Assembly: GCA_943840615.1 (NCBI GenBank)
Contig: CALSVI010000008.1
Span: forward strand, 1-64,000
Direction of reading: 5' to 3'
DNA length: 64,000 nt
Source of the DNA: an uncultured Luminiphilus sp.
GTDB taxonomy: Bacteria > Pseudomonadota > Gammaproteobacteria > Pseudomonadales > Halieaceae
Position numbers and translations under genes: made by a program. The first letter of the stretch is position 1; each line of letters begins with the position of its first letter. Under the pieces are notes generated by a model that saw only the letters and a program-made list of their open reading frames with translations, ran no database searches and was not told the DNA's origin. Positions 479 through 21,233 of this stretch are shown here, one piece after another.

Positions 479-1567
479 ATGAAACAGCTGGAGATCCCTT
501 TCATGCAGTTGCGCGGAGGTAGCTCGAAAGGGCTTTACTTTCTGGCCTCTGATCTACCATCTGAAGCTGATGTGCGGAACGCCATACTTGTTGATGCTGT
601 TGGCCGAGGCTCGCGGCAAATAGACGGTTTGGGCGGTGCAGACCCCCTCACGAGCAAAGTCGCCATCGTTGGGCCCTCGACCCGTGCTGATGCTGACATC
701 GACTTTCTTTTCGCCCAAGTGGTTGTAGGCCAAGATGTGGTCGATACCACGCCCAACTGCGGCAACATATTAGCGGGTGTGGGGCCGTTCGCTGTAGAAG
801 CAGGGCTGGTCCGGGCTCAACCCGGAAAGACCTGCGTTACCGTGCATATGGTCAATAGCGGGAAGCTCTGTGCACTGCTTCTGGCCACACCAGATGGCGT
901 TATGGAATACGAGGGTGATACGGCGATTGATGGTGTGCCCGGCACATCGGCTGCGGTTGTCTGTAACTATCTGGATGTGGCCGGTTCTATTTGTGGTGCC
1001 CTGCTACCCACTGGGAACGTTGTTGATTCCGTTGGTGGGGTTCGGGTCACTTGCGTGGATAACGGGATGCCGGTGGTGGCGTTACTGGCTAAAGACTTTG
1101 GTCTGACGGGGCATGAAAGCCCGGAAAAGCTCAACAGCGATCAGGCTCTGAAAACCCGACTGGAGTCCATCCGTATCGAACTGGGGCCAATGATGAACCT
1201 CGGTGATGTCGCTGACAAAGCGGTGCCAAAGATGTGTCTGATTTCCCCGGCTCTGCACGGCGGATTGATCAATACCCGAACCTTTATCCCTCACAAATGC
1301 CACAGCGCCGTAGGCGTGCTGGGAGCGGTATCGGCCGCAACGGCGGCCATCATCCCGGGCTCGGTGGCCGAAGGTCTGGTCAATGTGCCGCTAGGTGAGA
1401 CCAAGCAGATTTCCGTTGAGCATCCTTCGGGAGAATTCTCTATCTCCCTTGAGGTCGACGAATCAGGTGAGCTTCCAGAGATCAAGAAAGCGGGAGTACT
1501 GCGCACGGCACGACTGCTCAGCCGTGGCGTGCTTTTCGTTCCTGCCCCAGCCAAGCGAGGTCCATAA
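479..1567 (+). CDS. galD: 4-oxalomesaconate tautomerase (PrpF family)
   Basis: The 362-residue product is a full-length PrpF-family isomerase (diaminopimelate-epimerase fold). It starts with the family signature MQLRGGSSKGLYF and has the catalytic-region motif TTPNCGNILAGVGPFA near residue 95. PrpF proteins isomerise 2-methylaconitate or tautomerise 4-oxalomesaconate. The next two genes encode the 4-carboxy-4-hydroxy-2-oxoadipate aldolase and a PIG-L hydratase of GalB type, which points to 4-oxalomesaconate, converting the keto form to the enol in gallate/protocatechuate 4,5-cleavage. It is the first gene of a three-gene operon, and the next start codon directly follows its stop. In sphingomonads the equivalent is LigU. 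The alternative, aconitate isomerase PrpF of the methylcitrate cycle, is unlikely because no prpBCD genes are nearby. Confidence 0.88.
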   Translation: MKQLEIPFMQLRGGSSKGLYFLASDLPSEADVRNAILVDAVGRGSRQIDGLGGADPLTSKVAIVGPSTRADADIDFLFAQVVVGQDVVDTTPNCGNILAGVGPFAVEAGLVRAQPGKTCVTVHMVNSGKLCALLLATPDGVMEYEGDTAIDGVPGTSAAVVCNYLDVAGSICGALLPTGNVVDSVGGVRVTCVDNGMPVVALLAKDFGLTGHESPEKLNSDQALKTRLESIRIELGPMMNLGDVADKAVPKMCLISPALHGGLINTRTFIPHKCHSAVGVLGAVSAATAAIIPGSVAEGLVNVPLGETKQISVEHPSGEFSISLEVDESGELPEIKKAGVLRTARLLSRGVLFVPAPAKRGP

Positions 1568-2269
1568 ATGAAGACAGTGGCAGTAAGAAACATTGACCGA
1601 GCGAGTGCAGACACTGTGGATGCCCTGGCTGCGTTCGGTGTGGCAACGGTGCACGAGGCACAGGGCCGCTCAGGCCTCATGAAGCCCTACATCACCCCAA
1701 TATATCCGCGCGCCCAGATCGGGGGCAGCGCTATTACGGTCCTGGCCCAACCCGGAGATAACTGGATGATCCACGTCGCGATTGAGCTATGCCAGCCGGG
1801 CGACGTCCTGGTGGTCGGTTGCACCACAGACAATACGGACGGGATGTTTGGTGACCTGCTGGCGACTTCCTGCCAAGCCCGGGGCGTCCGCGGTTTGATT
1901 ATTGATGCCGGTGTCCGCGATGTGGCCGACCTTCACGAGATGAACTTTCCGGTCTGGTCCCGCGCCGTGTCCGCCAAGGGTACCGTGAAAAATACCCTGG
2001 GCGCGGTCAACGTTCCTCTGGTGTGCGCAGGACAACTCGTAACGCCGGGCGATGTGGTGGTGGCGGATGACGACGGTGTCGTTGTCGTGCCCCGTAGCAG
2101 CGCCGACGCCGCCCGAGACGCTGCGCAGGCTCGCGAAGACAACGAGGCGAGCAAACGGGAACGCCTGGCCGGCGGTGAACTCGGCCTCGATATGTACAAC
2201 ATGCGCCCGCGCCTAGAAGAGGCGGGTCTCGTTTATCTCGACTCGCTCTCCGATCTGGTTGAAGCATAG
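1568..2269 (+). CDS. ligK: 4-carboxy-4-hydroxy-2-oxoadipate (CHA) aldolase
   Basis: This 233-residue protein belongs to the RraA-like class II pyruvate aldolase family, called LigK in Sphingobium and GalC in Pseudomonas. The body matches closely: [16 protein letters not shown] near residue 25, the phosphate/pyruvate-binding stretch with PGDVLVVG, then [14 protein letters not shown] carrying the Arg-Asp pair that holds the metal and substrate. It cleaves CHA to pyruvate and oxaloacetate, the last step of 4,5-cleavage of protocatechuate and gallate. ATG lies immediately after the galD stop and galB follows after 39 bp, so the three are probably cotranscribed. Unlike plain RraA, it keeps the C-terminal helical extension typical of the aldolases. 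Confidence 0.9.
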
Positions 2270-2308
2270 ACAACGGCTATGAACATGGACCATGAGGCAT
2301 AGAAAAAC

Positions 2309-3043
2309 ATGAGTGACAACAAATCAGTTCTGGTAATCAGTGCCCACGCGGCGGACTTTGTTTGGCGGTGCGGTGGCGCCATCGCACTCCATCAGAAGCG
2401 CGGCTATGACGTCACGATCGCCTGCCTGTCTTTCGGCGAAAGGGGTGAATCCGCCAAGCTGTGGAAAAAAGGCAGTATGAGTCTGGACGAAGTGAAAGCC
2501 GTTCGGCGTGATGAGGCCGAAGCAGCGGCAGCCGCGCTCAATGCCCACGATATTCAGTTCTTTGATTTTGGTGATTATCCGCTGGAGATAGATACAGACG
2601 GCAAATACAAAATTGTCGATCTGATCCGTAAGGTACAGCCCACCTTCATGCTGAGCCATTCCAAGTACGATCCCTATAACACCGACCATATGTATGCCAC
2701 GGAGGTCGCGATGCAATGCCGCATGATTGCGCAGGCCTGGGGTCATAATCCTGAGGAGCAGGTTCTTGGTGCCCCACAACTTTATCTGTTTGAGCCCCAC
2801 CAGACTGAACAGATGGGCTGGAAGCCCGATGTTTTCTTAGATATTTCAGAGGTCTGGGACGAAAAATGGGCCGCGATTCAATGTATGCAGGGGCAGGAAC
2901 ACCTTTGGCATTTCTACGAGAACGTTGCTGAAAACCGGGGCAACCACTTCCGGAGAAACTCTGGTGGCCAGGCGGGCGGCAAGAGCGTGAAGTATGCGGA
3001 GGGCTTTCAGAGCGTCTATCCGCGATGCGTCGATGAATTGTGA
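2309..3043 (+). CDS. galB: 4-oxalomesaconate hydratase, PIG-L metalloenzyme type
   Basis: This 244-residue PIG-L/LmbE-fold protein opens with VLVISAHAADFVWRCGGA, the metal-binding loop that in ordinary deacetylases is HPDD but in GalB-type hydratases carries H-x-A-D. It continues with CLSFGERGESAKLW, LSHSKYDPYNTDH and a C-terminal VWDEKWAAIQCMQGQEHLW, all resembling Pseudomonas GalB. GalB hydrates 4-oxalomesaconate to CHA, the substrate of the aldolase encoded just upstream. Together with galD and ligK this gives the complete lower gallate pathway. No ring-cleaving dioxygenase (GalA or LigAB) is visible here, so the upper step must lie elsewhere or upstream of the window. Confidence 0.87.
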   Translation: MSDNKSVLVISAHAADFVWRCGGAIALHQKRGYDVTIACLSFGERGESAKLWKKGSMSLDEVKAVRRDEAEAAAAALNAHDIQFFDFGDYPLEIDTDGKYKIVDLIRKVQPTFMLSHSKYDPYNTDHMYATEVAMQCRMIAQAWGHNPEEQVLGAPQLYLFEPHQTEQMGWKPDVFLDISEVWDEKWAAIQCMQGQEHLWHFYENVAENRGNHFRRNSGGQAGGKSVKYAEGFQSVYPRCVDEL

Positions 3044-3118
3044 GGAGCGATTCGCAGGGACACACCTCTCTCATTCAGGGCATGTGGCATCGCAAATAGC
3101 AACACAAGGGCATAGGGC

Positions 3119-3418: not shown

Positions 3419-3461
3419 TTGCTTTGAACGGTAGCTTGAAATTCCATCGAGAGGTCATCAC

Positions 3462-5150
3462 GTGAAGCTAATAACCCGATTACTTATTCTTTGTATGCTC
3501 GCCGCTGGTGGGGTTAGTTGCCAACGTGAAGCCTTGGAAGCAACTAAACCGGCGGAGCCGTCGGCCATAGAAACTCGACCCAATTTCCTGCTGGTAGTTG
3601 TCGACGATATGGGTTTCGCCGACATCGAGCCTTTCGGCAGTGAGATCGAAACACCTACGCTCACACGGCTCGCCGAGAATGGTGTGATGTTTACGAGCTT
3701 CTATGCGGCGCCTACCTGCTCGCCAGCACGGGCCATGCTCATGTCGGGTATGGACAATCATATCGCGGGTATCGGAAATATGGCCGAGACCGTGGCTGAC
3801 AACCAGATGGGGCTGCCTGGCTACGAAGGTCATTTACGTGAGGAGGTGCCGACGATTGCCGAACGCCTGTCCGAGCACGGTTATCGCACTGTGATGGCGG
3901 GTAAGTGGCACCTGGGAATGAAGCGTGAGTTGAGCCCCGGAGCGCGGGGCTTCGATCATGCGCTGAGTTTCAGCTTTGGCGGCGGTAGCCATTACTCGGA
4001 TCTTCTGGGTCCTGATCTGCATCGCCCGAAACTTCTGTATCGTAAGAACGGTGTGCTCAATCCGCAACTTGAGGATGACTTCTATTCCACGACGAGTTTT
4101 ACCTCGGAAGTTATCGCGGGTCTCGAGAGCACGGCGCACACCGGTAAGCCATTCTTTGCCTATCTGGCGTTTACCGCGCCGCATTGGCCTCTCCAACTCC
4201 CCTCCAATGACGCTGATGCCTTCGCCGGCCGCTATGACCAGGGCTACGACATCCTGTGGCAGGAACGACTCACTAAGCAGCGCGAGCTGGGATTGTTTGA
4301 CGAGGCGCAGAGCTCTGCGCCGCGACCGGAAGGCGTTCCCGCTTGGGATGAGTTGGATGTAGAGAGTCAGCGGCGGTCGTCGCGAGTGATGGAAATCTAC
4401 GCGGGCATGATCCAGAAGCTCGACACTGAGCTCGATCGATTGCTTGCGTATCTAGAGTTCAAGCATCTCGCAAAGGATACTGTCGTTATCTTCATCTCCG
4501 ACAATGGCGCTGACAGCTGGGATGCCGGTCACGCACCGCCTGCTGTCCGAGATCATGCCGTCACCTTCGACAACCGCTACGAGAACATGGGCAGGCCGGG
4601 GTCTTTCACGCTGTTTGATCGAGGTTGGGGCTGGGTCAGTAGTACGCCATTCAGAGGCTACAAGGGTTCCACGTTTGAAGGTGGCATTCGCGTGCCCGCT
4701 ATTATTTCTTCAGCAGATATCTCGTCGCCGGGCAGGATATCAACGGAAACGGTCAGCATTACAGACTTCGCGCCGACGATTATGGAGTTGGCGGATATAC
4801 CGTTTGAAGAAAGCCAGTTTTCGGGACGTAGCATCACTCGGCTTATGAAAAACGAATCTGACTCCGTGCGAACCGATGGGGATTATGTCGGCGTGGAAAT
4901 CTGGGGCCGCCGAGCAATTAAGGTCGGCAATTGGAAGGCCGTGCGGATGCCAAAGCCTCTAAGCGATGATCGTTGGCTGCTGTTTGATCTCGATGCTGAT
5001 CCTGCTGAGCAGAACAACCTCGCTGAGGACGAGCCCGAGACGCTTGCCAAGCTTGAGGCGGCGTGGGAGCGCTACGTAGCAGAGAACAATGTCGTATTGC
5101 CTGAGGGGCCTTTCCGCATCCTGCCGCCGGAACCGCTACCGACTGATTAA
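3462..5150 (+). CDS. Arylsulfatase, lipoprotein, formylglycine Cys-type
   Basis: The 562-residue product (GTG start) begins with a lipoprotein signal peptide whose lipobox GVSC ends at Cys20, so it should be anchored to a membrane facing the periplasm. The sulfatase signature CSPAR at residues 86-90 contains the Cys that formylglycine-generating enzyme must oxidise. Asp48-Asp49 (VVVDDMGF) and GKWHLG near 147-152 supply calcium and sulfate ligands, and ISDNGAD further on gives the second metal pair. Length and motif order fit the large AtsA-like arylsulfatases. No dedicated anaerobic maturase is adjacent. Its place between the gallate genes and a transporter suggests removal of sulfate from an aromatic or carbohydrate ester before catabolism. 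The substrate cannot be deduced. Confidence 0.9.
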   Translation: MKLITRLLILCMLAAGGVSCQREALEATKPAEPSAIETRPNFLLVVVDDMGFADIEPFGSEIETPTLTRLAENGVMFTSFYAAPTCSPARAMLMSGMDNHIAGIGNMAETVADNQMGLPGYEGHLREEVPTIAERLSEHGYRTVMAGKWHLGMKRELSPGARGFDHALSFSFGGGSHYSDLLGPDLHRPKLLYRKNGVLNPQLEDDFYSTTSFTSEVIAGLESTAHTGKPFFAYLAFTAPHWPLQLPSNDADAFAGRYDQGYDILWQERLTKQRELGLFDEAQSSAPRPEGVPAWDELDVESQRRSSRVMEIYAGMIQKLDTELDRLLAYLEFKHLAKDTVVIFISDNGADSWDAGHAPPAVRDHAVTFDNRYENMGRPGSFTLFDRGWGWVSSTPFRGYKGSTFEGGIRVPAIISSADISSPGRISTETVSITDFAPTIMELADIPFEESQFSGRSITRLMKNESDSVRTDGDYVGVEIWGRRAIKVGNWKAVRMPKPLSDDRWLLFDLDADPAEQNNLAEDEPETLAKLEAAWERYVAENNVVLPEGPFRILPPEPLPTD

Positions 5151-5265: not shown

Positions 5266-6480
5266 TTAAGGCGATCGTACCTGCTCTGGGTAACGCCCCA
5301 TAGCCAGGAACATGGCGATACAGGCTACAAGCATACCCACAGCCACGCTAAGCATTGTCGCGTAGCCGCCTGTGGCCTGCGCGACAGCCCCGAACAGCGG
5401 TGGGGCAATGCCCGCACCCACCAAGAAAAAGGCAATGATGGCGCCGAAAATCTCCGGGTAATGGTCTGGTCCAAAGAACGTACTTGTCAGGTATGCCAGC
5501 AGATCCAGCTCAGCTCCGGCCGCCAGACCAATCATGATAGCGATCATCATTGCGGTTGAAGTACCCACATCCCCTCTTAAGATTATTAGCAGAGCGATGG
5601 TCGGGAACATAAAAAAAACGGCGGCGACACCGGGCGCCCAAAACTTATCGACTAGGATCCCAACCGCAAGACGACCAATCACCACGGTAATACCCATTAC
5701 CGATGCGATGCCTGCAATCGCGCTTGGCGCGAAACCTTGTTCGCCCATGATTCGCGGGAAGTTGGACAACAAGCCGGTAAGAACGATAACAGTTACGAAC
5801 ATTACGGCGCCAAGTAGCCAGAAATTAGTAGTTCGCATGGCCTGAGAGCGAGTAATGCCCCATGAAGTCGGCCCTGTCGCACCCGCGTCTCCGGTTTGCG
5901 CTGTGGTGTTCTCGCGAAACAGAGAGAAAACAATCGGCAGTGATATGCACATCGCTCCCAATCCGATAGTTCTGTACCCCAGACGCCAGCCATAATTTGA
6001 GATTACGAACTCCACAATGGGCGGAAGTATGAAGGCTCCCAACCCCGTTCCCATCATCGTGATCCCAATAGCCTTGCCACGGTGCTTTGTGAACCAGCCA
6101 TTAAGGACGCCGGTCCACACTATTGGCAAGGAGCCTGCTCCAAGCAAACCGAGCAGCGCCCAACTTGCACACCAGACGGCCAAGGACCCCGTGTTGAATG
6201 AAAGGAGCACGTAAGCCAGGGAGTGCCCAATGAGCCCGAATATGCCGATACTGCGCAATCCATGTCGTTTGACCAGAGAACCAACAATGGGGCCAGTGAT
6301 AAGGCCTAGACACATCATGACGGTGTAGCTCAGGAAAAACTGCGGCGGTGTCCAACCAAACTCTGCCGTGACGGGGCCTACAAAAAACCCCTGCGAGTAG
6401 CTAGTCAGAGTGAAAATGCCGCACATGGTGCCGATAGTGGCGGCTAGCAGAGGCCTCCAACCCTGAGAAAACTCATTCAT
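5266..6480 (-). CDS. MFS transporter, monocarboxylate-porter-like
   Basis: About 404 residues with twelve hydrophobic segments and MFS features: a first helix TMCGIFTLTSYSQGFFVGPV, a loop with GSLVKRHGLRSIG after helix 2, and a central loop near residue 205 separating two six-helix halves. It resembles the MCT/OFA branch that carries organic acids. I place the start at ATG 6480 (MNEFSQGW), preceded by GGAG at suitable spacing. The open frame extends upstream to 6537 but that part looks non-coding. It is convergent with the sulfatase and lies in the same direction as the LysR gene 150 bp upstream. Uptake of an aromatic acid by this carrier is inferred from context. Confidence 0.85.
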   Translation of the reverse strand: MNEFSQGWRPLLAATIGTMCGIFTLTSYSQGFFVGPVTAEFGWTPPQFFLSYTVMMCLGLITGPIVGSLVKRHGLRSIGIFGLIGHSLAYVLLSFNTGSLAVWCASWALLGLLGAGSLPIVWTGVLNGWFTKHRGKAIGITMMGTGLGAFILPPIVEFVISNYGWRLGYRTIGLGAMCISLPIVFSLFRENTTAQTGDAGATGPTSWGITRSQAMRTTNFWLLGAVMFVTVIVLTGLLSNFPRIMGEQGFAPSAIAGIASVMGITVVIGRLAVGILVDKFWAPGVAAVFFMFPTIALLIILRGDVGTSTAMMIAIMIGLAAGAELDLLAYLTSTFFGPDHYPEIFGAIIAFFLVGAGIAPPLFGAVAQATGGYATMLSVAVGMLVACIAMFLAMGRYPEQVRSP

Positions 6481-6691
6481 CTTCGCGTGGCTCCGATTTG
6501 GTTTTTTGTAGGTATCCGGAATCGATAGGCCGAGCATTCATTAAAGCCACATTGCGTGGCTAATGAGCATTTGTGTAAAGCGAATGAATTCGAATACGTA
6601 GACATTCAAGCTTCTGTGTCTGGCCGGTCGCGATAGTGCCTTTCCAGAGATTGTCCTTGTGACCGCCGTCAGATACCGAAGCGAGAAGGGC

Positions 6692-7639
6692 CTAGGATTC
6701 GGGGAGTAGCTTTAACTCCGGCATTTTCTCCATTACTCGTAGATCCCAAGGGGGTAGGTCGCCATATTTACGCCGCAGAAAATTGATGAAAATGCGCACT
6801 TTCATCGGTACATACTGTGACCGACGGTAGTAGGCGCGGAGAGATACTTCGCGGACTTTGTACTCGGCCATTATCGGCACCAGTTTCCCAGACAGAATCT
6901 CTTTTTCAATGAAGAAAATAGGCATCAACGACAGGCAATGACCGCTCGTGACCGCGGCATGAAGCATCCAGATGTTATTAGCCACGATGACGGGCTCAAT
7001 AGGAATCTCAACTGGCCGGTCATCTTTCATCAGGTTCAGCTTGAGTGTAGGCGTCACGTAATTATTTAGCGCAAAAGGATGATCGGCCAGGTCCTCGGGT
7101 GAGGACGGGATGCCATGTTTTTCGAGGTAACTGGGACTCGCTACTAGCAAACGGCGCACAGGCAAAACCTCTGTAGCTTCGAGCACTCCGGTCGGCGTGT
7201 TTCCGGCTTGAATACATACATCAAAGCCTTCGTGCACCGGATCACAGAACCTATCGTGCTGCTGAAGGTCGATACTCAGGTCGGGATGATCGCGACCGAA
7301 TTCACACAGGTCCTGAGCGAGGCACACTGAGGTGAAAGACGAAATACAACTGACGCGGAATGTCCCGCTCAGGCCCCACTCCATGGTGCTCACTGCGGAT
7401 TTCGCATTGTCGAGATCACCGATGATCTTGACGCAGCGTTCATAAAAGTTAGCGCCCGTGTCGGTGAGCGACATTTTTCGGGTGGAGCGCTGCAGTAGTA
7501 CCATTTCCATATGGGATTCAAGTTGGTTGATTCGCTTTGTGATGACGGACTTGGCGATGCCTTCCTGACGCGCCGCCTCGGCAAAACTGCCGGCCTCGAC
7601 GACTTTGACGAAGGAGCGAATGGATTTGAGTTCGTCCAT
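6692..7639 (-). CDS. LysR-family transcriptional regulator
   Basis: The 315-residue protein has an N-terminal LysR winged helix (MDELKSIRSFVKVVEAGSF, then AEAARQEGIAKSVITKRINQLE) and an effector domain of normal length, with RVSCISSFTSVCLAQDLCEF opening the periplasmic-binding-like fold. It belongs to the CrgA-like branch by general appearance (VLLQRSTRKMSLTDTGANFYERC). The gene is divergent from the TonB-receptor/GST/SDR/ALDH run across a 159-bp gap, so it most likely controls that operon and perhaps itself. The MFS gene lies downstream in the same direction. The inducer is not deducible from sequence. Confidence 0.92.
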   Translation of the reverse strand: MDELKSIRSFVKVVEAGSFAEAARQEGIAKSVITKRINQLESHMEMVLLQRSTRKMSLTDTGANFYERCVKIIGDLDNAKSAVSTMEWGLSGTFRVSCISSFTSVCLAQDLCEFGRDHPDLSIDLQQHDRFCDPVHEGFDVCIQAGNTPTGVLEATEVLPVRRLLVASPSYLEKHGIPSSPEDLADHPFALNNYVTPTLKLNLMKDDRPVEIPIEPVIVANNIWMLHAAVTSGHCLSLMPIFFIEKEILSGKLVPIMAEYKVREVSLRAYYRRSQYVPMKVRIFINFLRRKYGDLPPWDLRVMEKMPELKLLPES

Positions 7640-11771: not shown

Positions 11772-12527
11772 ATGGATAGACTGAAGGATAAAGTTGCCGT
11801 AGTGACCGGCGCTGCTCAGGGAATCGGAGCGGCCTATGCGAAAGGGCTGGCATCACAGGGCGCACTTGTCGTCGTATGTGATCTTGCCGATACCTCATCA
11901 GTAGTTGATGAGATCAACGGAGAGGGCGGTTCAGCGATGGGTGTCAGCGCTGATGTCACTGACGACGACTCACTGAAAAACCTAGTAGCCGAGGTTGAGG
12001 GGCACTTTGGGCCCATCGAAATTTTGATCAACAACGCTGCGATCTTTGCATCCATCCAATTTAAACCGTTTACTGAGCTAAGTAACGAAGAGTGGGATGC
12101 GGTAATGAGGGTGAACGCACGTGGGCCGTTTCAGGCCACCAAGGCGATGCTTCCCAGTATGCAGAAGAACGGCCGTGGCAAGATCATTAACATCTCATCT
12201 GGCACGTTCCTGCGAGGGGCGCCTATGTTCTGCCATTACGTGGCCTCTAAAGGTGCTGTGGTGGGCCAAACACGAGCCCTATCGCGAGAGCTCGCGGCCA
12301 GTAACGTCTATGTGAACTGTATTATGGTCGGACTCACGGAGAGTGAAGGCGTGGCGGAGAGTAAGCAATATGATATGGCGCGCTCGGCGAATCAGAATAT
12401 GCGTGCGTTCCAGCGCGATATGATGCCGGACGATCTGCTGGGAACTGTCTACTTTCTTGCCAGTGAAGACAGCGATTTTATTTCTGGTCAGTGCATCAAT
12501 GTGGATGGTGGCGCGCTGAACTACTGA
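11772..12527 (+). CDS. Short-chain dehydrogenase/reductase
   Basis: A classical 251-residue SDR: cofactor motif TGAAQGIG near residues 12-19, DVTDDDS near residue 60, NNAA near 88, catalytic Ser (INISSG) and HYVASK giving the Tyr-x3-Lys pair, and a C-terminal DFISGQCINVDGGALNY. CDLAD after the second strand suggests NAD(H) preference because of the acidic residue. It sits between two GST genes and an aldehyde dehydrogenase, in the position LigD/LigL-type alcohol dehydrogenases hold in lignin-ether pathways. Oxidation of a side-chain alcohol to ketone before GST attack, or of a released alcohol, is inferred. Confidence 0.92.
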   Translation: MDRLKDKVAVVTGAAQGIGAAYAKGLASQGALVVVCDLADTSSVVDEINGEGGSAMGVSADVTDDDSLKNLVAEVEGHFGPIEILINNAAIFASIQFKPFTELSNEEWDAVMRVNARGPFQATKAMLPSMQKNGRGKIINISSGTFLRGAPMFCHYVASKGAVVGQTRALSRELAASNVYVNCIMVGLTESEGVAESKQYDMARSANQNMRAFQRDMMPDDLLGTVYFLASEDSDFISGQCINVDGGALNY

Positions 12528-12552
12528 ATCAGTCAGCAGTGGAGCTCAGAGC

Positions 12553-13995
12553 GTGACGACAGACGATCAGCAAGCCCTAGGACACTGGATCAACGGTGAG
12601 CATTGTACCTCGGCCGGAGGTGCGACTTTTACCGTATTCAATCCCAGCGATGACAGCCCATTTTCGGTGGTGGCCGAGGGATCAGCGGTAGAGATGGATC
12701 TTGCGGTCCAGGCTGCTCATGACGCCTTTCAGACATACCGACATACGTCGGTGAACGAGCGAGAACGCTGGCTGGCTAATGCGGCCGCAATGCTGGAGGA
12801 GCGAAAAGCAGAATTTGTCGATTTGTTGATAGACGAAGCGGGTTCCGCTATTTCCAAGGCGCAATTTGAAACGGGCAAAGCGGTGAGCTTTATTCGTGCT
12901 GCCATTGGCATGGTAAGACAGGTAAGCGGCAAGACGTTGCCCAGTGATTATCCGGGCCGGATTAGCCTGACCTGGCGTGAGCCCCGCGGTGTGGTTGCTG
13001 TCATTACGCCCTTCAATGTTCCGCTCATCAAAGCGAGTCGCCTTTGTGCCAACGCGCTGGCAACGGGTAGTACTGTGGTAATGCTCCCTTCGGAGCACAC
13101 GCCGGTGATCGCACTTAAGTTTGCGGAATTACTCTCAGAGGCTGGTTTCCCTGACGGTGCAGTCAATGTTGTAGCGGGCGACGGCTACACGATCGGCGAC
13201 TCCCTGGTGACCCACCCGCTGGTGAGGTCAGTAACCTTTACTGGTTCTACAGTAGTGGGGAAACACATCCAGCAGTTGTGTGCACGCGATAACAAGCATG
13301 TGACGCTGGAGCTGGGCGGCAAGAATCCTCTGGTGATTTTGAACGACGCAACGCTATCAGATGCCGTGCAAGGCGCGGTGCGCGGTATGTTTATGCATCA
13401 GGGGCAGGCCTGCATCAGTTCAAGTCGGATCTATGTGCAGAAGGGCATATACCCTGAGTTTATCAAAGCGTACACAGGCGCCGTGTCCAAGCTGGGTGTG
13501 GGTGATCTGCGTGACCCCGCGACGATTATTGGGCCGATTATCAGCGATCGGCAGCGCGAACGGATCAAGCGGCACATCAGGGATGCGCAGGACAAAGGTG
13601 CGAATATCGTGGTCGGTGGAGACTGGGAGGGCAATCGCTGCCACCCTACGGTTTTAACCAATGTGACAGAGGACATGGAATGTCACGCAGAAGAGACTTT
13701 TGGTCCTGTGGTCAGTGTCTATCAGGTCGAAGATTTGGATGAAGGTCTCGTCGCGGCCAATAACTCTCGCTACGGATTGAGTTCCGCGATTTATACGAAT
13801 GACTTTAATAGCGCGCTGCGCTACGCGCGCGCTATTGAGTCGGGCATGGTCCATGTGAATGGGCCCTCTGTGACTGATGAAGCTCATGTGCCTTTCGGGG
13901 GTGTTGGTGACAGCGGCTTTGGGCGAGAGGGTACGGAAGCCGATATCGACGCACTCACGGAGCTGAAGTGGGTAACTATGCAGACGAAGACTTAG
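12553..13995 (+). CDS. NAD(P)-dependent aldehyde dehydrogenase
   Basis: The 480-residue ALDH (GTG start) resembles the vanillin/benzaldehyde dehydrogenase branch: VVAVITPFNVPLIK for the cofactor fold near residue 155, FTGSTVVGK, the general-base ELGGKNPLVIL near 256, nucleophile GQACISSSRI near 289-299, and EETFGPVVSVY. The C-terminus HVPFGGVGDSGFGREG is normal. It is the fourth enzyme gene after the TonB receptor, 25 bp after the SDR stop and 9 bp before the next start, so it is clearly part of the operon. An aromatic aldehyde such as vanillin or syringaldehyde would be a sensible substrate, because acids derived from these feed the gallate/protocatechuate pathway at the left end. The substrate is inferred. 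Confidence 0.92.
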   Translation: MTTDDQQALGHWINGEHCTSAGGATFTVFNPSDDSPFSVVAEGSAVEMDLAVQAAHDAFQTYRHTSVNERERWLANAAAMLEERKAEFVDLLIDEAGSAISKAQFETGKAVSFIRAAIGMVRQVSGKTLPSDYPGRISLTWREPRGVVAVITPFNVPLIKASRLCANALATGSTVVMLPSEHTPVIALKFAELLSEAGFPDGAVNVVAGDGYTIGDSLVTHPLVRSVTFTGSTVVGKHIQQLCARDNKHVTLELGGKNPLVILNDATLSDAVQGAVRGMFMHQGQACISSSRIYVQKGIYPEFIKAYTGAVSKLGVGDLRDPATIIGPIISDRQRERIKRHIRDAQDKGANIVVGGDWEGNRCHPTVLTNVTEDMECHAEETFGPVVSVYQVEDLDEGLVAANNSRYGLSSAIYTNDFNSALRYARAIESGMVHVNGPSVTDEAHVPFGGVGDSGFGREGTEADIDALTELKWVTMQTKT

Positions 13996-14004
13996 GTTAC
14001 ACGC

Positions 14005-14529
14005 ATGGAGACCTGGCGCCGTACCGGAGGTGAAATTCCTGAATTCGAGGTCAACCTGCTTGCTGGCGGAGTATGGCGCAGTCGAGAGGTGGTGGCAGCA
14101 GGGCGCTTTACCTTACTGAACGTTTATCGCGGTAAGTGGTGTCACCAGTGCGCACGTCACCTGAAGGAATTGGACCTACTGGTTCCCGAGTTTGCGAATC
14201 GCGGTGTAGCCGTGGTGGCTGTAAGTGCTGACACCCAGGAGCGCGCGTTAGAATTTTACAAAAAACTAGGTCTCCAAAGTCTTCGGGTGGGCTACGAAAT
14301 GCCGATCGATAAAGCGCGAGAGCTCGGGGTGTTTGTGTCCTCAAAAGCGAAAGAAGAAGAGATGCCTCTTTTTTGTGAGCCTGCGCATTTTCTGATCGGT
14401 ACTAATCACAAGGTCTTCGCGTCGTGGATTTCCTCTTGTGCATTCGCCCGAGCCAAGCCTCAGGGCATCCTAGAATATGTGGACTTTATCGGCGATAAGG
14501 TGAATAAGGTCCCTCGGGGCTCTGCTTGA
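14005..14529 (+). CDS. Peroxiredoxin-like (AhpC/TSA family) thioredoxin-fold protein
   Basis: This 174-residue thioredoxin-fold protein contains VYRGKWCHQCARHLKEL near residue 48, a C-x-x-C motif placed where AhpC/TSA peroxiredoxins carry the peroxidatic Cys, followed by VAVVAVSADTQERALEF. It matches the peroxiredoxin-like group 2 pattern more than classical AhpC, and has no signal peptide. As last gene of the run, 9 bp after the ALDH, it may reduce peroxides or mixed disulfides formed during glutathione-dependent catabolism. This role is inferred. A thiol-disulfide reductase function is an equal possibility because of the two-Cys motif. Confidence 0.8.
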   Translation: METWRRTGGEIPEFEVNLLAGGVWRSREVVAAGRFTLLNVYRGKWCHQCARHLKELDLLVPEFANRGVAVVAVSADTQERALEFYKKLGLQSLRVGYEMPIDKARELGVFVSSKAKEEEMPLFCEPAHFLIGTNHKVFASWISSCAFARAKPQGILEYVDFIGDKVNKVPRGSA

Positions 14530-14969: not shown

Positions 14970-15251
14970 TCGGTTGTAAACCGTCGTCCAAGCAGCATGT
15001 CAGCGTTGAAATTATGCGCTCTTGTCTGAAATAGAACGTTCACGATTCGAGAATAGTGAGGGCTCGTGGAAGGATATTATCAACAATATGCCTAACAATT
15101 AGAGTCGTCCTGAGACTTGGCTAAACCTTTAGAAGCGAGACCTCAATCCGTTCTCTACTGATTGGAATGTTCCACGGTAGGGGATCAGGCGGGCACAACT
15201 TTTCGGCGAAAACTAAAGGCATACAGTATAAGTATAAAAGGAGTCGGAGAT

Positions 15252-17720
15252 ATGGAAGCGAGCAAACACTCAGTGTTGTCCAGAACATCAATCGCTATCG
15301 GAGCGGTTTTTTTAACGTCGGGATTAGTGGTCACTCCCTCAGTCAGTGTTGCGCAAGCAACAGGCACGGCAGTGCTTGAGGAAGTGACCGTTACAGCGCG
15401 TAAAAAAGAGGAAAGTTTGTCTGACGTGCCTATTTCGATCAGCGCGGTGTCAGGCGATTTTCTTCAGGAGTCGAATCTGTCAGACCTTTTGGGGCTTGCT
15501 GACGAAATACCAAATCTATCATTTGGTGAGGCCTTTAATTCATCTGACCGTTTCGCCATTCGAGGTGTCAGTACTAACGGTAACAATATCGGATTTGAGC
15601 AAGCGGTTGGTTTCAATATAGATGGATATTATTTTGGACGTAGTCGATTCGGTCAGACAATGTTTCTGGATCTGGAGCGAGTTGAAGTCTTGAAAGGCCC
15701 CCAAAATACCCTGATCGGGAAAAATAATACGGCCGGGGCGATCAACATTACGACGCGTAAACCTGGGGATGAATTTGGCGGTTATTTGGCCACTTCTTAT
15801 GACTTTGAAGCTGGGGAGGGTTTTGCTGTAGAAGGCGCAGTCGATCTGCCTCTTGGCAACAATGTTAGGAGCAGAATCGCTGCCAGGCTCGAAGACAAAG
15901 ACGGCTATATGGAGCATGGGCTTACTGGGTCTGATGTCTCGGGCGCTAGAGACAACTTTACGATACGAGGCATAGTAGAGTGGGATATCACCGAGCGTGT
16001 TGATGCGACCCTTCTGTATCAGTATGGCGAGATCGACAGGGGTGCACGCCCGCGAGAAGCAGGTGGTAACTGTAACGTGGCTCATCCGATTGACGACTGC
16101 TCATACAATAACGTGAAGTATGAGGCAGCATTCTGGGCGGGTGAAAATCGGGAAGACGATTTTGTCACGGAGACCGACTATTCCATGGTCGGGCTGACAT
16201 TTAACTGGCAGCTCAATGACGGCTGGACACTTTCATCGTTGACCAATTTCACCTCTTATGAAGGCAACGATCTTTCGGAATCGAATTTCGATCAAACTAT
16301 CGATGCCACATTGGCCCAGATTCAAGATGAGTTTGAGCAATTTAGCCAGGAGGTTCGGTTGCTCGGCTCACTATCGGAGTCCGTTGATCTGATTGCAGGG
16401 GTCTATTACAACGACAATACAGTCGATGCCGCTCACTCATTACTGTTTTGCGGCGGCCCTGTTAATTGCTCCGATGCTTCCTCGCCTACATACGGAGGTC
16501 TGATGCGCAACTTTGATTCTACTCAAGATGCGGAGACGATCTCGGTGTTCGGTCAGATTGATTTTAGTCTTGGCGACACATTAACCCTCGGCATTGGCGG
16601 CCGTTTTACAACGGAAGACAAGGAAGCTAACGGGAGAAAATGGGTTTCGGACCTTGGTGACGGCTCGAGCGGTTTTGTTGGGCACCAAATGGGTGGTGGA
16701 ACACCTCTGCCCGGTACCGATTTCGCCGGGGGTGGTGGCTGCACATCGCTTCCCTCACTTGGTGGGCCCCGAAGAGATTTGAATGGCCGAACAGTGGGCT
16801 GTTACGGCCCGTTGGTGTCGGGATCCAATGGCGGTAGTTTTTCCCGAAGCGAGGACGACTTCTCTCCTAATGCTGTGCTGACCTGGCAACCTAGCGACGA
16901 GCACATGTTGTACGTCAGCTACTCAGAGGGATTCAAGGGCGGCGGTTATCAATTGTGGCCGGTGGGTGGTGGCGCACTAACGGCCGCAGAGATCGAATTT
17001 GACGGAGAAACTGCCGAGAGCTTTGAGGCGGGCGGCAAGCACACCCTGTTGGCGAGCACGCTGCAGGTTAATTGGTCCGCCTGGTCTACTGAAGTGCAGG
17101 GCCTGCAAGTCGCCGCATTTGATCCAGTCATCACCGCGCAAAATATCGTTAACGCAGGTCAAACCACGTCTGAAGGCGTTGAGGGCGATTTCATCTGGCT
17201 GCCAGACGCTTCGCACCGAATCTCGGCTTCATTTGCCTACACCGATGCTACGTATGATTCTTACGAGGGCGCTAACTGCTACCCAGGACAGACTCCAGAA
17301 ATGGGCTGTGTTGGCGGACAGCAGAGCCTTACCGGCCAAAGCGTGTCATACGCCCCAGAGTGGCAGTACATCTTTTCGGTTGATGGCGCATACTCCTTTG
17401 CGGCGAACATGGAGTGGGGCTGGCGGGCTGCCTATAACTGGCGGGATGATCAGTTTATAGGGACCACAAATCACCCTACCGCTGATGTGCAGGAGGCCTA
17501 TGGTAAGTTCAACGCCAGTTTGTTCCTGGCGAGTGCCGACGGTAAGTGGCGTGTTTCTTTAATCGGCACAAACCTCAATGATGAGAACGTGGGCACTGGT
17601 GCGAATCACGGCCGTATGATGAATCTATTGCCGGAGCGAGGAGTAACGCCGGCAATACCGACATTGGTGTTCATGGCTCCCGGCCGGCAAGTCGCGATTC
17701 AGGGTCGCTTCAATTTCTAG
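15252..17720 (+). CDS. TonB-dependent outer-membrane receptor
   Basis: I choose ATG 15252 because AAAAGGAG lies 8 bp upstream and the following residues make a signal peptide (MEASKHSVLSRTS to about SVAQA). The frame is open further upstream to 15162 but without coding character. The 822-residue product has the TonB-box-like EEVTVTARKKEESLSDVP, a plug with VEVLKGPQNTLIGKNNTAGAI, and a beta-barrel ending in GRFNF, the standard C-terminal aromatic. Several Cys pairs in extracellular-loop regions (GGNCNVAHPIDDC, LLFCGGPVNC) suggest disulfide-stabilised loops. The next gene, an alkylsulfatase-like hydrolase, begins 60 bp downstream and is probably cotranscribed, hinting that a sulfate ester is the ligand. 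Confidence 0.93.
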   Translation: MEASKHSVLSRTSIAIGAVFLTSGLVVTPSVSVAQATGTAVLEEVTVTARKKEESLSDVPISISAVSGDFLQESNLSDLLGLADEIPNLSFGEAFNSSDRFAIRGVSTNGNNIGFEQAVGFNIDGYYFGRSRFGQTMFLDLERVEVLKGPQNTLIGKNNTAGAINITTRKPGDEFGGYLATSYDFEAGEGFAVEGAVDLPLGNNVRSRIAARLEDKDGYMEHGLTGSDVSGARDNFTIRGIVEWDITERVDATLLYQYGEIDRGARPREAGGNCNVAHPIDDCSYNNVKYEAAFWAGENREDDFVTETDYSMVGLTFNWQLNDGWTLSSLTNFTSYEGNDLSESNFDQTIDATLAQIQDEFEQFSQEVRLLGSLSESVDLIAGVYYNDNTVDAAHSLLFCGGPVNCSDASSPTYGGLMRNFDSTQDAETISVFGQIDFSLGDTLTLGIGGRFTTEDKEANGRKWVSDLGDGSSGFVGHQMGGGTPLPGTDFAGGGGCTSLPSLGGPRRDLNGRTVGCYGPLVSGSNGGSFSRSEDDFSPNAVLTWQPSDEHMLYVSYSEGFKGGGYQLWPVGGGALTAAEIEFDGETAESFEAGGKHTLLASTLQVNWSAWSTEVQGLQVAAFDPVITAQNIVNAGQTTSEGVEGDFIWLPDASHRISASFAYTDATYDSYEGANCYPGQTPEMGCVGGQQSLTGQSVSYAPEWQYIFSVDGAYSFAANMEWGWRAAYNWRDDQFIGTTNHPTADVQEAYGKFNASLFLASADGKWRVSLIGTNLNDENVGTGANHGRMMNLLPERGVTPAIPTLVFMAPGRQVAIQGRFNF

Positions 17721-17780
17721 ATAAAGATATTGGTGGGTTTCGATTGTTGTTCCCCGTTTTTTTAAACAGTGAATTGGTGA

Positions 17781-19169
17781 ATGTGTAGCGTGTCCTTGTA
17801 TCTGCGTAGCTTGATGACAGTGGCGTTAATTCTCAGTGGCGGCTTTGCTTTTGCCGACACTGAGGCCACGCGGGAACTCAAACTTAGAAATGCAGAGTTT
17901 GAGAAGGACATCATCAAAGTATCCGACAGCGTCTATGTAGCGGTGGGTTATGCAGTCTCAGCGGTAAGCATGATCGTGGGTGAGGATGGTCTGGTCATCA
18001 TAGACACTGGCATCGACACTGTTAGCGGCGCCGAAATCCGGGAGGACTTTCGGAAGATCAGCGAGAAGCCAGTTGTCGGCGTCGTAATCACTCATGGCCA
18101 TCCTGACCACTTGGGTGGTCTCGCCGCGTTTGTCGATTCTGGAGATGTGCAAGTCTGGGCTCGGGAGGGGCTTCAGGATGAAGCCAATACCTTGCGCGAG
18201 GCGGGGATAAACCGACAGCGAAAGCGGGGGGCGATGCAGGCGGGCTTTATGCTGAAACCTGAGCAGCGCATCAATAATGGAATTGCCAAGGCTTATTGGC
18301 CAAAACGTGGGGGTGCGGTTTTTGAATCCGCTCACGAGGCCAAGCCGACGCACTTTACGACCGACGATCGCACTCGCGTGTCGTTCGCCGGGGTAGATCT
18401 CGACCTGGTGGTGGCTGATGGGGAGACCAGCGATGCGCTTTACATTTGGTTCCCCAAAGAGGCGGTGCTCTTCGCGGGGGACAATTTCTACAAGTCATGG
18501 CCCAACCTTTCTCCGATTCGGGGTTCAGCGTATCGCGATGTCAGAACATGGGCGATGACAGTTGACGCTATGCTCAATGAGCAGCCTGAAGTCCTAGTAC
18601 CTGGTCACACGCGACCGATTGTGGGGTCAGAAGTAGCGGCCGAAATGCTCACCAACTACCGCGATGCGATTCAGTTTGTGTTCGATAAGACGGTTGAGGG
18701 AATCAACAAAGGATTGACGCCGAACCAGCTCATTGAATACGTCCAGTTGCCTGAAAAGTACCTGAAGCTGGACTATCTCCGACCGCATTACGGCAACCCA
18801 GAATGGGCCGTCAGGTCAATTTTTGCTGGGTATCTGGGGTGGTTTGATGGCAATGCGACTAATCTCTTCCCGTTAACTGACAAGGAAGAAGCAACCCGCC
18901 TCGCTAAAATGGCAGGTGGAATATCACAATTGCGTGCTCAGTCGGAAGCAGCCATGGAGGAGGGTGACTACCAGTGGGTGCTGAAACTCTCCGACTATAT
19001 CCTCGCTCTTGAGCCTGGATCGACAGATGCAAAGCTACGCAAAGCGGACGCTATGACAAAACTGGCGGAAGTGGTACTCACCACGACGGCCAGAAACTAC
19101 TACCTCAGCAGTGCCAAACAATTGCGAGAAAGTGCTGCAGCCATGGTTGTTAGCGCTCCTGACGAATAA
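17781..19169 (+). CDS. Alkylsulfatase-like metallo-beta-lactamase-fold hydrolase, exported
   Basis: The 462-residue protein starts with a signal peptide (cleavage near FAFADTEA). The metal site THGHPDHLGGL (H-x-H-x-D-H) is followed by AGDNFYKSWPNLSPIRG and VLVPGHTRPIVG, then IQFVFDKTVEGINKGLTPNQL and YLGWFDGNATNL, all hallmarks of the SdsA1/BDS1 zinc alkylsulfatases with their dimerisation domain. SdsA1 has about 650 residues. This protein stops after the dimerisation domain, so the C-terminal SCP2-like substrate domain is missing. It would act in the periplasm. Together with the lipoprotein arylsulfatase at 3462 it makes a second, mechanistically unrelated sulfate-ester hydrolase in the same island. 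Confidence 0.87.
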   Translation: MCSVSLYLRSLMTVALILSGGFAFADTEATRELKLRNAEFEKDIIKVSDSVYVAVGYAVSAVSMIVGEDGLVIIDTGIDTVSGAEIREDFRKISEKPVVGVVITHGHPDHLGGLAAFVDSGDVQVWAREGLQDEANTLREAGINRQRKRGAMQAGFMLKPEQRINNGIAKAYWPKRGGAVFESAHEAKPTHFTTDDRTRVSFAGVDLDLVVADGETSDALYIWFPKEAVLFAGDNFYKSWPNLSPIRGSAYRDVRTWAMTVDAMLNEQPEVLVPGHTRPIVGSEVAAEMLTNYRDAIQFVFDKTVEGINKGLTPNQLIEYVQLPEKYLKLDYLRPHYGNPEWAVRSIFAGYLGWFDGNATNLFPLTDKEEATRLAKMAGGISQLRAQSEAAMEEGDYQWVLKLSDYILALEPGSTDAKLRKADAMTKLAEVVLTTTARNYYLSSAKQLRESAAAMVVSAPDE

Positions 19170-19279: not shown

Positions 19280-19531
19280 CTAGTCAAGTCCTCTGGTAAT
19301 GATCGCGTCTACTGCGGCATAGGTGGATACAGCGAATGGTACGCAATAAGTAAGCGGCACCTTCCAGAAGAGGTCCGGCGAGAGAGATCCAACGAGTATG
19401 AGATTGCCTTGATTGATCCCGGTCAGGATTGTACCGACGATCATCGACACTTTTGCGCTTCGGCGAATGACGGGCCTGCTGCTGGCGACTCGGAGCCACT
19501 GCTGAAACGAAGATTCTTCAGCTCGGATCAT
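19280..19531 (-). CDS. nrtS: Small membrane protein, NrtS-like
   Basis: The 83-residue frame contains SAKVSMIVGTILTGINQGN, then LFWKVPLTYCVPFAVSTY. Two hydrophobic segments flank a conserved I-N-Q-G turn and a L-T-Y-x-V-P-F-x-V-S-T-Y block, which I recall from the small nitrate/nitrite transporter family NrtS. The N-terminal 25 residues are polar and may be a tail or a misplaced start. No nitrate reductase is present in the window, so the link with nitrate is only by family name. An overlapping plus-strand frame has no such pattern and was rejected. Confidence 0.6.
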   Translation of the reverse strand: MIRAEESSFQQWLRVASSRPVIRRSAKVSMIVGTILTGINQGNLILVGSLSPDLFWKVPLTYCVPFAVSTYAAVDAIITRGLD

Positions 19532-19853
19532 GAGTTAATCATCAGGGGATTCCTGTCACATTAAGTTCTAGCGGCCAATTGCGGCAATATTCGCCAGCCA
19601 CACCGTTGGTTTGGTTCGCAGCGAAAATTTGCACTAGCAAGAAAAGGCGGTGTAAAAATTTGAGGGAGCCTCGCGCAGAACGGACTCGATCACACTCAGC
19701 TCCCTCGAAATGCTCGCCACAAGAGCTATGTCAATTTACACGTTGAGGGTGAGCAGGGCCGCGGATGGCTTTGTTAATTCATGATGATTCCAAATTTTTT
19801 CAGCGTTAGCGCAGTGGTCGTGGGTGAGGGTGGGCACAAATACACGGTCGGTA
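19532..19853. other. Intergenic stretch without recognised gene
   Basis: About 320 bp between the start of the NrtS-like gene and the stop of glutathione reductase. I see no convincing coding frame, tRNA or strong hairpin with a T-run. It should contain the promoter of the NrtS-like gene (minus strand) and the 3' end of the gor transcript. Confidence 0.5.
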
Positions 19854-21233
19854 TTAATTTTTTACCGACTCACGCATGGTGACAAACTCCTCAGCGCTGG
19901 TGGGGTGAACGCCAACGGTTCGGTCGAAATCATTTTTCGTTGCGCCACAGCGGAGCGCGATTGCCATACCCTGTACGATTTCACCCGCGTCCGGCCCAAC
20001 CATGTGCACTCCTACCACCCGCTTATTCGTATCCTCCACGATGAGCTTCATCAGGGACCGCTCCTCGCGGCCGCTAAGCGTGTGCTTCATGGGCTTAAAT
20101 TCAGAACGGTAAATTGTCACCGCACCAAACCGTTCTCGCGCTTCATTTTCTGTGAACCCTACTGTTCCTATATTGGGTTGGCTGAATACGGCGCTGGGAA
20201 TATATTCATAGTCCACGCTCGCTTGCTGCTGGCTGAACTGTGCCTTAGCAAAAGCCATGCCTTGCGCCAGAGCTACGGGTGTTAGCTGCGCCCCCCCTAT
20301 CAGATCGCCCAGCGCGTAGATCGATGGTTCGTCAGTTTGGAAGTGCTCGTTGACTCGAATAAAACCTTCTTCACTGAATTTTACCTTAGTGCACTCAATG
20401 TTCAGATCAGCAACATGTGGACGTCGCCCCGTAGCACATAAAATCGCATCTGCATCAACTTCACCGCCTCCATCAAGCTCCACTCGGAACGCATCACCCG
20501 CGGAATGTATTGCACGGACTTGACTGCCAAAACGCAGATCGACCCCAGACTTTCGAATCTCATCGGCCAAGAAACCTCTTATATCGTCGTCGAACCCACG
20601 CATGAACAACTCACCTCGGTAGAGTTGCGTCACCTCACTACCCAGTCCATTGAAGACGCCTGCAAACTCGGTTGCGATGTAGCCGCCACCAATAATTAAG
20701 AGGCGCTCGGGGAACTGTTCGAGATCAAAAATTTCATTCGAGGTGAGCATGAACTCACTGCCCGGAAATTCAGGCACGTACGGCCACGTGCCGGTCGCGA
20801 TGAGAATGCGCTCTGTACTGAACCGAGAGCCATTCACCTCTACGTGTTGAGGGCTCAGAACACGGGCGCGGCCATGAATAATTTCTGCCCCGGGAGCCTC
20901 AAGGAGTCGCTCATAAATGTTATTGAGGCGCAAAATTTCTTCTTTTTTGTTGTCCCTCAAAATAGACCAGTTGAAGCTGGCCTCTCCGACCGTCCAGCCA
21001 AAACCCTCAGAGTCCTTGAAAGACTTACCAAACTCACTGGCGTACACATAGAGCTTTTTTGGAACACAGCCTACGTTGACGCAGGTGCCGCCCATATAAC
21101 GATCTTCCGCGATAGCCACTCTGGCACCCATGCCGGCAGCCATTCTGGCTGCACGCACGCCACCTGAACCTGCGCCGATCACAAATAAGTCATAGTCGAA
21201 GTCAGTGGATATTGTTGAGTTTTCCAAGCCCAT
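19854..21233 (-). CDS. gor: Glutathione-disulfide reductase
   Basis: This 459-residue flavoprotein disulfide reductase has FAD motif VIGAGSGGVRAARMAAGMGA, redox-active GGTCVNVGCVPKKLYVY near residues 48-64, the NAD(P)H fold IIGGGYIATEFAGVF near 182, the second FAD motif ALGDL near 310, and the C-terminal HPTSAEEFVTMRE with the catalytic His-Glu pair. The C-V-N-V-G-C form and the absence of a lipoamide-type insert identify glutathione reductase. It reduces GSSG with NADPH. Its position next to an island with two glutathione-using enzymes fits regeneration of glutathione for those reactions, although gor is also a housekeeping gene. Confidence 0.93.
   Translation of the reverse strand: MGLENSTISTDFDYDLFVIGAGSGGVRAARMAAGMGARVAIAEDRYMGGTCVNVGCVPKKLYVYASEFGKSFKDSEGFGWTVGEASFNWSILRDNKKEEILRLNNIYERLLEAPGAEIIHGRARVLSPQHVEVNGSRFSTERILIATGTWPYVPEFPGSEFMLTSNEIFDLEQFPERLLIIGGGYIATEFAGVFNGLGSEVTQLYRGELFMRGFDDDIRGFLADEIRKSGVDLRFGSQVRAIHSAGDAFRVELDGGGEVDADAILCATGRRPHVADLNIECTKVKFSEEGFIRVNEHFQTDEPSIYALGDLIGGAQLTPVALAQGMAFAKAQFSQQQASVDYEYIPSAVFSQPNIGTVGFTENEARERFGAVTIYRSEFKPMKHTLSGREERSLMKLIVEDTNKRVVGVHMVGPDAGEIVQGMAIALRCGATKNDFDRTVGVHPTSAEEFVTMRESVKN

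Follow-up and report, generated by a model that had tools for sequence, protein, structure and literature searches.

The first 64,000 bases of contig C8 (1-64000, the whole stretch analysed and hereafter the window) of G000, a metagenome-assembled genome (MAG) of the Halieaceae (OM60/NOR5), contain a conserved block of genes running from an S1 arylsulfatase to an alkylsulfatase of the metallo-beta-lactamase (MBL) fold (3462-19169), which we read as part of an island for the catabolism of sulfated aromatic compounds. We give an even chance to the full reading, in which the substrates would be sulfated hydroxybenzyl or phenolic compounds that also carry halogen, most likely bromine. Taken separately, sulfated aromatics with a glutathione-dependent step are the likely substrates, the chances of a halogenated substrate appear even or somewhat better, and an ether-linked one seems unlikely. 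The gene families, the operon layout, the conservation in three lineages and the co-location with a reductive dehalogenase (RdhA) in two of them are read directly from the sequences. The assembly comprises 2.09 Mb in 19 contigs with an estimated completeness of 82%, and near-identical loci are present in two Halieaceae MAGs, one uncultured Halioglobus MAG and one Gammaproteobacteria MAG. The genes are listed below with protein identities to their counterparts in NOR5-3 (G068; loci L061, L062 and L078), a member of another genus, and in G448, a member of another family.

2..298, minus strand: LysR regulator of the lig/gal operon, 5' part; complete (412 aa) on contig C6
479..1567, plus strand: galD, 4-oxalomesaconate tautomerase (NF033377 493.1 bits, cut-off 440)
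1568..2269, plus strand: ligK, 4-carboxy-4-hydroxy-2-oxoadipate aldolase (TIGR02798 372.7 bits, cut-off 304.5)
2309..3043, plus strand: candidate galB-type hydratase of the PIG-L fold (PF02585); the name GalB is inferred from context
3462..5150, plus strand: S1 arylsulfatase (PF00884; C-x-P-x-R at Cys86; best PDB entry 1hdh, E 7.7e-118); NOR5-3 69%, G448 47%
5266..6537, minus strand: MFS carrier (PF07690); NOR5-3 76%, G448 68%
6692..7639, minus strand: LysR regulator, divergent from the operon of the glutathione transferases (GSTs); NOR5-3 68%, G448 57%
7799..10129, plus strand: TonB-dependent receptor 1 (TBDT1), first gene of the operon; NOR5-3 85%, G448 48%
10170..10946, plus strand: GST1, S-x-C motif; NOR5-3 72%, G448 52%
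10946..11752, plus strand: GST2, S-x-C motif (S10, C12); NOR5-3 87%, G448 57-58%
11772..12527, plus strand: short-chain dehydrogenase/reductase (SDR), putative alcohol dehydrogenase for a benzylic alcohol; NOR5-3 84%, G448 52%
12553..13995, plus strand: aldehyde dehydrogenase (ALDH); NOR5-3 82%, G448 66%
14005..14529, plus strand: AhpC/TSA-fold protein with CxxC; NOR5-3 72%, G448 51%
15162..17720, plus strand: TonB-dependent receptor 2 (TBDT2), start uncertain; another receptor precedes the MBL gene in NOR5-3 and G448
17781..19169, plus strand: MBL-fold alkylsulfatase, relative of SdsA1/Pisa1 (PF14863 and PF00753; THGHPDH); NOR5-3 77%, G448 59%
19854..21233, minus strand: glutathione reductase, Gor (PRK06116 590.1 bits, cut-off 480); linkage seen in the window's genus only

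The genes from TBDT1 to the CxxC protein form a tight operon (successive gaps of 40, -1, 19, 25 and 9 bp), while those of TBDT2 and the MBL sulfatase form a pair, separated by 60 bp and located 632 bp downstream of the CxxC gene. The G+C content is 0.51-0.55 across 6 to 22 kb of the window and 0.54-0.59 rightward of that. In NOR5-3 the order of the block is kept from the S1 gene (575.2 kb) to the last MBL gene (593.6 kb) except for TBDT2, at whose place stands a receptor that is not its counterpart (best match 25%, to TBDT1); additional genes are LigB and LigA between the MFS and LysR genes and, upstream, another receptor and an extra MBL sulfatase. In G448 the block genes are rearranged within 36 kb and accompanied by LigC (67%), LigA (53%) and a GST (32%); a receptor there is 69% identical to the last receptor of NOR5-3, and its LigB is closer to the copy in the NOR5-3 operon (82%) than to the one inside the NOR5-3 block (65%). 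A LigA and LigB pair is thus found among the block genes in both genomes. The single S1 sulfatase found in the G000 assembly (a second match is the overlapping end of a contig) and its single PF14863 alkylsulfatase both lie in the block, and because of this, the tight gaps, the synteny in another genus and the rearranged set in another family, the grouping is more than chance.

An earlier note on this DNA had drawn the island from 479 to 21233, and the genes that it named are present as intact open reading frames (ORFs) where it placed them, according to family models and a check of the ORFs. The conservation of a block in relatives, which it had proposed as a check, is seen in the two genomes above, and the idea of sulfated aromatics and a glutathione step feeding 4,5-cleavage gains from this synteny and from the presence of LigA and LigB among the genes in NOR5-3 and G448. 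The extent, on the other hand, holds for 3462-19169 but not for the flanks, as galDKB and Gor are not adjacent to the block in NOR5-3, where the lig operon (~551.6-559.4 kb; galD 77%, ligK 83%) ends ~16 kb before the S1 gene. Within the window's genus, galD (cut in L075 and L076), ligK and galB lie beside the S1 gene on contigs L075, L076 and L129, and Gor is kept in L060/L077 (L059/L074, L060/L077 and L076/L144 are the same contigs, each counted once).

GST2 at E<=1e-55 was found in three of the 390 genomes of the order, i.e., its own genome, NOR5-3 and G448, and in a sample of 398 genomes of the phylum nothing was recovered beyond its own genome except a match in G109 at the level of a paralogue. 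At E 1e-60, a GST2 profile matched 9 of 140 genomes of the family: G000, G051, G052, G068 and G866 with orthologue-like scores, G822 in a diverged form, and G823, G834 and G842 with paralogue-like scores.

The signal for a halogen, which is missing from the earlier note, comes from BhbA-type RdhA genes near the block in two lineages. In NOR5-3 a reductase-fused RdhA (~563.1-566.4 kb; TIGR02486 210.6 bits, cut-off 160.35; nearest PDB entry NpRdhA, E 2e-168) is encoded in the stretch that separates the lig operon from the block, preceding the shared S1 gene by 8.8 kb and the extra MBL sulfatase gene by 4.3 kb, while in G448 an RdhA of 1075 aa, 64% identical to that of NOR5-3 (TIGR02486 217.1 bits; NpRdhA, E 4e-165), is encoded 5.5 kb from GST1. 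Residues Y426/K488/R552 of NpRdhA are conserved in both, as Y476/K538/R602 in NOR5-3 (numbered from the start used, L089:3146) and as Y477/K539/R603 in G448. The catalytic domain occurs in 4 of the 390 genomes of the order (NOR5-3, G448, G200 and G075), two of which also have GST2 (E<=1e-55); the corresponding hypergeometric value of 8e-5 (four RdhA genomes and two block genomes among the 389 others, with both of the latter carrying RdhA) is a post hoc figure that comes from two genomes and ignores relatedness. The PF13486 probe missed the RdhA of NOR5-3, and this protein itself was then used as the query, matching 5 of 117 genomes, with G077, G098 and G109 hit via the reductase part only. Beside RdhA, G448 encodes a 4-hydroxybenzoate 3-monooxygenase (PobA; TIGR02360 631.6 bits, cut-off 538.7), which could provide the step from a debrominated hydroxybenzoate to protocatechuate.

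The two sulfate-ester hydrolases are of unrelated fold, as the earlier note had it (PF00884 in S1; PF00753 with PF14863 in MBL). The C-x-P-x-R motif of the S1 enzyme is kept in the window, NOR5-3, G040 and G822. The MBL enzyme has the MBL domain with HxHxDH and the PF14863 dimerisation domain, and its nearest PDB entries are a sec-alkylsulfatase and SDS hydrolases; the match to 2yhe (E 1.6e-49) stops at residue 531 of 668, and the C-terminal part of 2yhe has no counterpart in the window enzyme. Judged by eye, the N-termini of both sulfatases resemble export signals, so both enzymes appear to be exported, S1 possibly as a lipoprotein. The top PDB entries for the ALDH include 4-hydroxybenzaldehyde, salicylaldehyde, vanillin and benzaldehyde dehydrogenases, with a succinate-semialdehyde dehydrogenase slightly further down, and the SDR is unspecific, its best solved matches being FabG-, pyridoxal- and phenylethanol-dehydrogenase-like. 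What had been called peroxiredoxin-like does have the AhpC/TSA fold, but it holds a CxxC (WCHQC) and weakly matches thiol-disulfide oxidoreductases; we regard it as a candidate reductant of glutathione mixed disulfides.

For both GSTs the nearest PDB entry is LigF (GST2 E 1.4e-29; GST1 E 1.7e-18), and to this extent the label LigF-like was right; in a GST tree, however, neither pairs with it. The tree has 32 rows and weak deep forks, and because 11 of its 29 inner branches are open, only the exclusion of GST1 and GST2 from the LigF pair is firm. LigF pairs at 100/100 with a protein from an alphaproteobacterial MAG (L080 10001-10702), and at 92/90 this pair is joined by two further rows, among them the second GST of plasmid pBAM2. 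GST1 clades with a protein of G096 (97/93), while GST2 stands in a separate 15-row group including BbdI, at a weak fork (86/78), and LinD sits on a long branch. In BLAST comparisons GST2 scores 144 bits with BbdI and 123 bits with LigF, and higher than either with several undescribed marine GSTs; among the 32 rows it is LigF's best match after L080 (34%). The label BbdI was given, following the description in PMC8460812, to the pBAM2 GST that is repeated with gorA, and the full-length identity of this protein is 31% to GST2 and 34% to GST2 of NOR5-3. S10 and C12 of the S-x-C motif are invariant in all eight aligned sequences, including GST1, GST2, LinD and BbdI, and LigF lacks the motif; S-x-C is widespread in this GST group and hence not diagnostic. 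LinD was considered as a near relative and rejected, its identity being just 24-26%. In plasmids of Paraburkholderia and Cupriavidus, loci of similar GSTs have gorA beside aromatic-type genes, and no annotated sulfatase was seen in the stretches examined, for which the PLSDB tables are incomplete. The L080 protein is itself 65% identical to LigF and probably a genuine beta-etherase. A further GST of G000, 35% identical to GST2, is located on contig C1 (L063 9399-18998) with an SDR, DUF1329, DUF1302, MMPL and an XylR_N/V4R sigma-54 activator as neighbours, perhaps a second catabolic or uptake cluster.

The set for protocatechuate 4,5-cleavage adjoins the block, because an overlapping contig carries the remaining lig genes. 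Bases 1-4535 of the window match the start of contig C6 (G000:C6:1-4535, L087) in reverse with one mismatch, at 2475; the two contigs very probably join, with the lig operon continuing to the left of the window, although the match may, with less probability, reflect a near-identical duplication. Beyond the overlap, C6 encodes the rest of LysR, a GFO/IDH/MocA protein, an Amidohydro_2 protein, a DUF1932 protein, LigB and LigA, followed by a CDP-alcohol phosphatidyltransferase and uvrC. We take the GFO/IDH/MocA and Amidohydro_2 proteins to be LigC-like and LigI-like, names that we assume from the order of the pathway, and LigA, LigB, GalD and LigK are all present across C6 and C8. Where the window has its PIG-L gene after ligK, NOR5-3 (L088 13380-14390) and G040, a genome of the window's genus (L128 3538-4548), have an amidohydrolase, presumably LigJ-like, for which NCBIfam gave no match. 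This appears to be a non-homologous replacement of one pathway step.

The scheme that follows, in which every substrate, every reaction and the order of reactions are our inference, would then join these parts. The TonB receptors would carry a sulfated aromatic into the periplasm, where the S1 arylsulfatase could strip a phenolic sulfate and the MBL enzyme an alkyl (benzylic) sulfate, and the MFS carrier would take the desulfated product inwards. The SDR and ALDH would act in turn on the benzylic alcohol and its aldehyde to give a (halo)hydroxybenzoate. Halogen would be taken off with glutathione by the two S-x-C GSTs, with the CxxC protein and Gor regenerating reduced thiols, and the protocatechuate thus formed would be cleaved and broken down by LigAB, LigC, LigI, GalD, the hydratase and LigK. 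The additional cobalamin-dependent RdhA of NOR5-3 and G448 would be expected to remove ortho-halogens; in the window genome, which lacks RdhA, dehalogenation would depend on the GSTs.

Several observations weigh against a halogenated substrate or against a single functional unit. RdhA was found neither in the window's own genome, which is 82% complete, nor in G051 or G052, and there is no block around RdhA in G200 (36 kb) or G075 (57 kb), the latter having an S1 sulfatase and a receptor ~35 kb from RdhA. The genes neighbouring the block that include RdhA may form a module of their own. The diverged version in G822 (L145-L148, G822:C187:45001-113629) has no GST1 or RdhA within 68.6 kb; it has LysR (48%), SDR (53%), GST2 (53%), ALDH (55%) and S1 (44%), a second ALDH, further sulfatases and a lig cluster, and perhaps serves a different sulfated aromatic. 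GST2 meets BbdI only in the weak 15-row group, LinD is on its long branch, and the second GST of the dichlorobenzoate plasmid falls on LigF's side. TBDT2 is common to neither NOR5-3 nor G448, galDKB and Gor lie apart from the block in NOR5-3, and the S1 enzyme of G448 has CSVTR in place of C-x-P-x-R. Furthermore, the solved RdhA that comes nearest, NpRdhA, does not act on bromine alone according to the passages describing it, and because of this the preference for bromine over chlorine rests on ecology.

These points lend most to an island for sulfated but unhalogenated phenolics, for instance of algae or seagrass, in which the GSTs would do isomerisation, lyase or quinone-adduct chemistry and RdhA would be a separate module. 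The block-bearing G000, G051 and G052 without RdhA and its absence near the G822 version are in keeping with this, neither the sulfatases, SDR and ALDH nor LigAB need a halogen, and S1 relatives are frequent (53 of 117 genomes at E<=1e-60). We nevertheless hold this explanation to be rather unlikely, as the rare RdhA (4/390) still stands at the locus of the block in two families and BbdI, a relative of GST2 with a described function, acts as a dehalogenase.

Less probable, and in our view improbable, is a loose neighbourhood in which the sulfatases would scavenge sulfate, the GST operon would serve thiol-dependent detoxification and the lig operon ordinary protocatechuate use. CysG-like, sulfite/nitrite-reductase-like and CysH-like ORFs adjoin the sulfatase island (window 22167-26257), and the separate galDKB and Gor of NOR5-3 also fit; yet S1, MBL, MFS, LysR, TBDT1, the GSTs, SDR and ALDH remain grouped in a second genus and, despite rearrangement, in a second family. 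The position of sulfate-assimilation genes beside sulfate-release genes may be a coincidence.

The grouping of an SDR, two GSTs, ALDH and 4,5-cleavage genes, LigF as nearest solved structure and GST2 as second-best LigF match would suit a beta-aryl-ether pathway of the LigDEFG kind acting on sulfated dimers of lignin or algal type. We consider this highly improbable, and the ether-linked substrate of the earlier note is not supported, given that the beta-etherase model NF042997 scores 24.2 bits for GST1 and 19.6 bits for GST2 against a cut-off of 440, that LigF pairs with L080 outside the clades of the block GSTs and lacks their S-x-C pattern, and that the SDR has the unspecific matches given above (LigD was outside that comparison).

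Returning to sulfated and halogenated aromatics, a more specific and tentative proposal, which we consider doubtful, is that the island would cover the whole breakdown of bromophenol sulfates from red algae, typified by lanosol-4,7-disulfate, and would form an aerobic sink for natural organobromine in which desulfation is coupled to glutathione-dependent debromination. Lanosol-4,7-disulfate is named because the gene list matches the aryl and alkyl sulfatases, the dehydrogenases, the two debrominations and the protocatechuate cleavage that it would need: of the two sulfates, the aryl one at C4 would fall to S1 and the benzylic one at C7 to the MBL enzyme, SDR and ALDH would convert lanosol to dibromoprotocatechuate, the two bromines of which would be removed with glutathione by the pair GST1 and GST2, and LigAB to LigK would finish, while in NOR5-3 and G448 RdhA could take the bromine ortho to a hydroxyl. 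The match is an inventory fitted to a structure and not an activity, and other bromophenol sulfates would fit too.

Among described systems, the bbd genes of pBAM2 (Aminobacter MSH1, 2,6-dichlorobenzoate) likewise pair an S-x-C GST (31-34% to GST2) and a glutathione reductase within a cluster for the catabolism of aromatics, bbdI coding for a glutathione-dependent thiolytic dehalogenase and bbdJ for glutathione reductase, in repeats, according to the relevant passages of PMC8460812. They differ in that no sulfatase, TonB receptor or LigAB is annotated in the 28.8 kb examined, where a TRAP transporter, a ring-hydroxylating oxygenase and VOC and FAH proteins occur instead. The lin genes of pCHQ1 share an S-x-C GST near gorA (LinD, a reductive dechlorinase), a TonB receptor and a ring-cleavage dioxygenase, but LinD has 346 aa and 24-26% identity, the dioxygenase is the hydroquinone 1,2-dioxygenase LinE, and no sulfatase is annotated in that region. 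The RdhA proteins near the block in NOR5-3 and G448 are, like BhbA, NpRdhA and JtRdhA, full-length reductase fusions with the catalytic Y/K/R, and PobA with LigAB in G448 matches the bromoxynil route to a 4,5-cleavage product as far as the passages describing it go; no RdhA was found in the window or its genome. The beta-aryl-ether pathway of sphingomonads (LigDEFG) uses an SDR, GSTs and 4,5-cleavage. The island shares its SDR, two GSTs and 4,5-cleavage, but the GSTs remain below the LigE-type cut-off and unpaired with LigF. Protocatechuate 4,5-cleavage (LigABCI, GalD, LigK) is matched by LigA, LigB, LigC-like, LigI-like, GalD and LigK proteins on C6 and C8, with the difference that the window has a GalB-type candidate where NOR5-3 and G040 have the LigJ-like amidohydrolase.

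To our knowledge, the return of red-algal bromine and carbon by aerobic seawater bacteria is poorly mapped. Red algae keep bromophenols partly as sulfate esters (PMC9322897), and Halieaceae are called abundant in coastal seawater in a passage of PMC10100682, in whose main text a term search found no occurrence of protocatechuate, dehalogen or glutathione. A debrominase of a marine Roseobacter has been described (PMC13101508); in the passages considered, this work and PMC10463259 concern cobamide enzymes and name no sulfatase or GST. Among the titles and starts of abstracts listed for open-licence PMC articles nothing was found on bacterial lanosol catabolism or on this island. A halo-aromatic catabolic island joining two kinds of sulfatase and S-x-C GSTs, with RdhA in two lineages, would be unusual. 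If the proposal is true, uptake, desulfation, glutathione-dependent and ring-cleavage steps are named in one Halieaceae locus, and the BbdI-like GSTs of a pesticide-degradation plasmid gain a natural context; the record of NOR5-3 carries a strain name, and if this strain is in culture the idea is directly testable.

Two further loci of the same kind deserve mention. G040 has the lig operon, galD, ligK, the S1 gene (80%) and a 168-aa MFS remnant directly beside Lrp (L128 376-3385), the GST operon, the second sulfatase and Gor being absent as one piece between the two, an arrangement suggestive of a deletion or the scar of an empty site. A contig binned in another genus (L144, G866:C299) shares 18,966 bp with the window at 99.3% identity and has, by eye, an integrase-like ORF near its end by the MBL sulfatase; its placement would reflect either mis-binning or a recent transfer.

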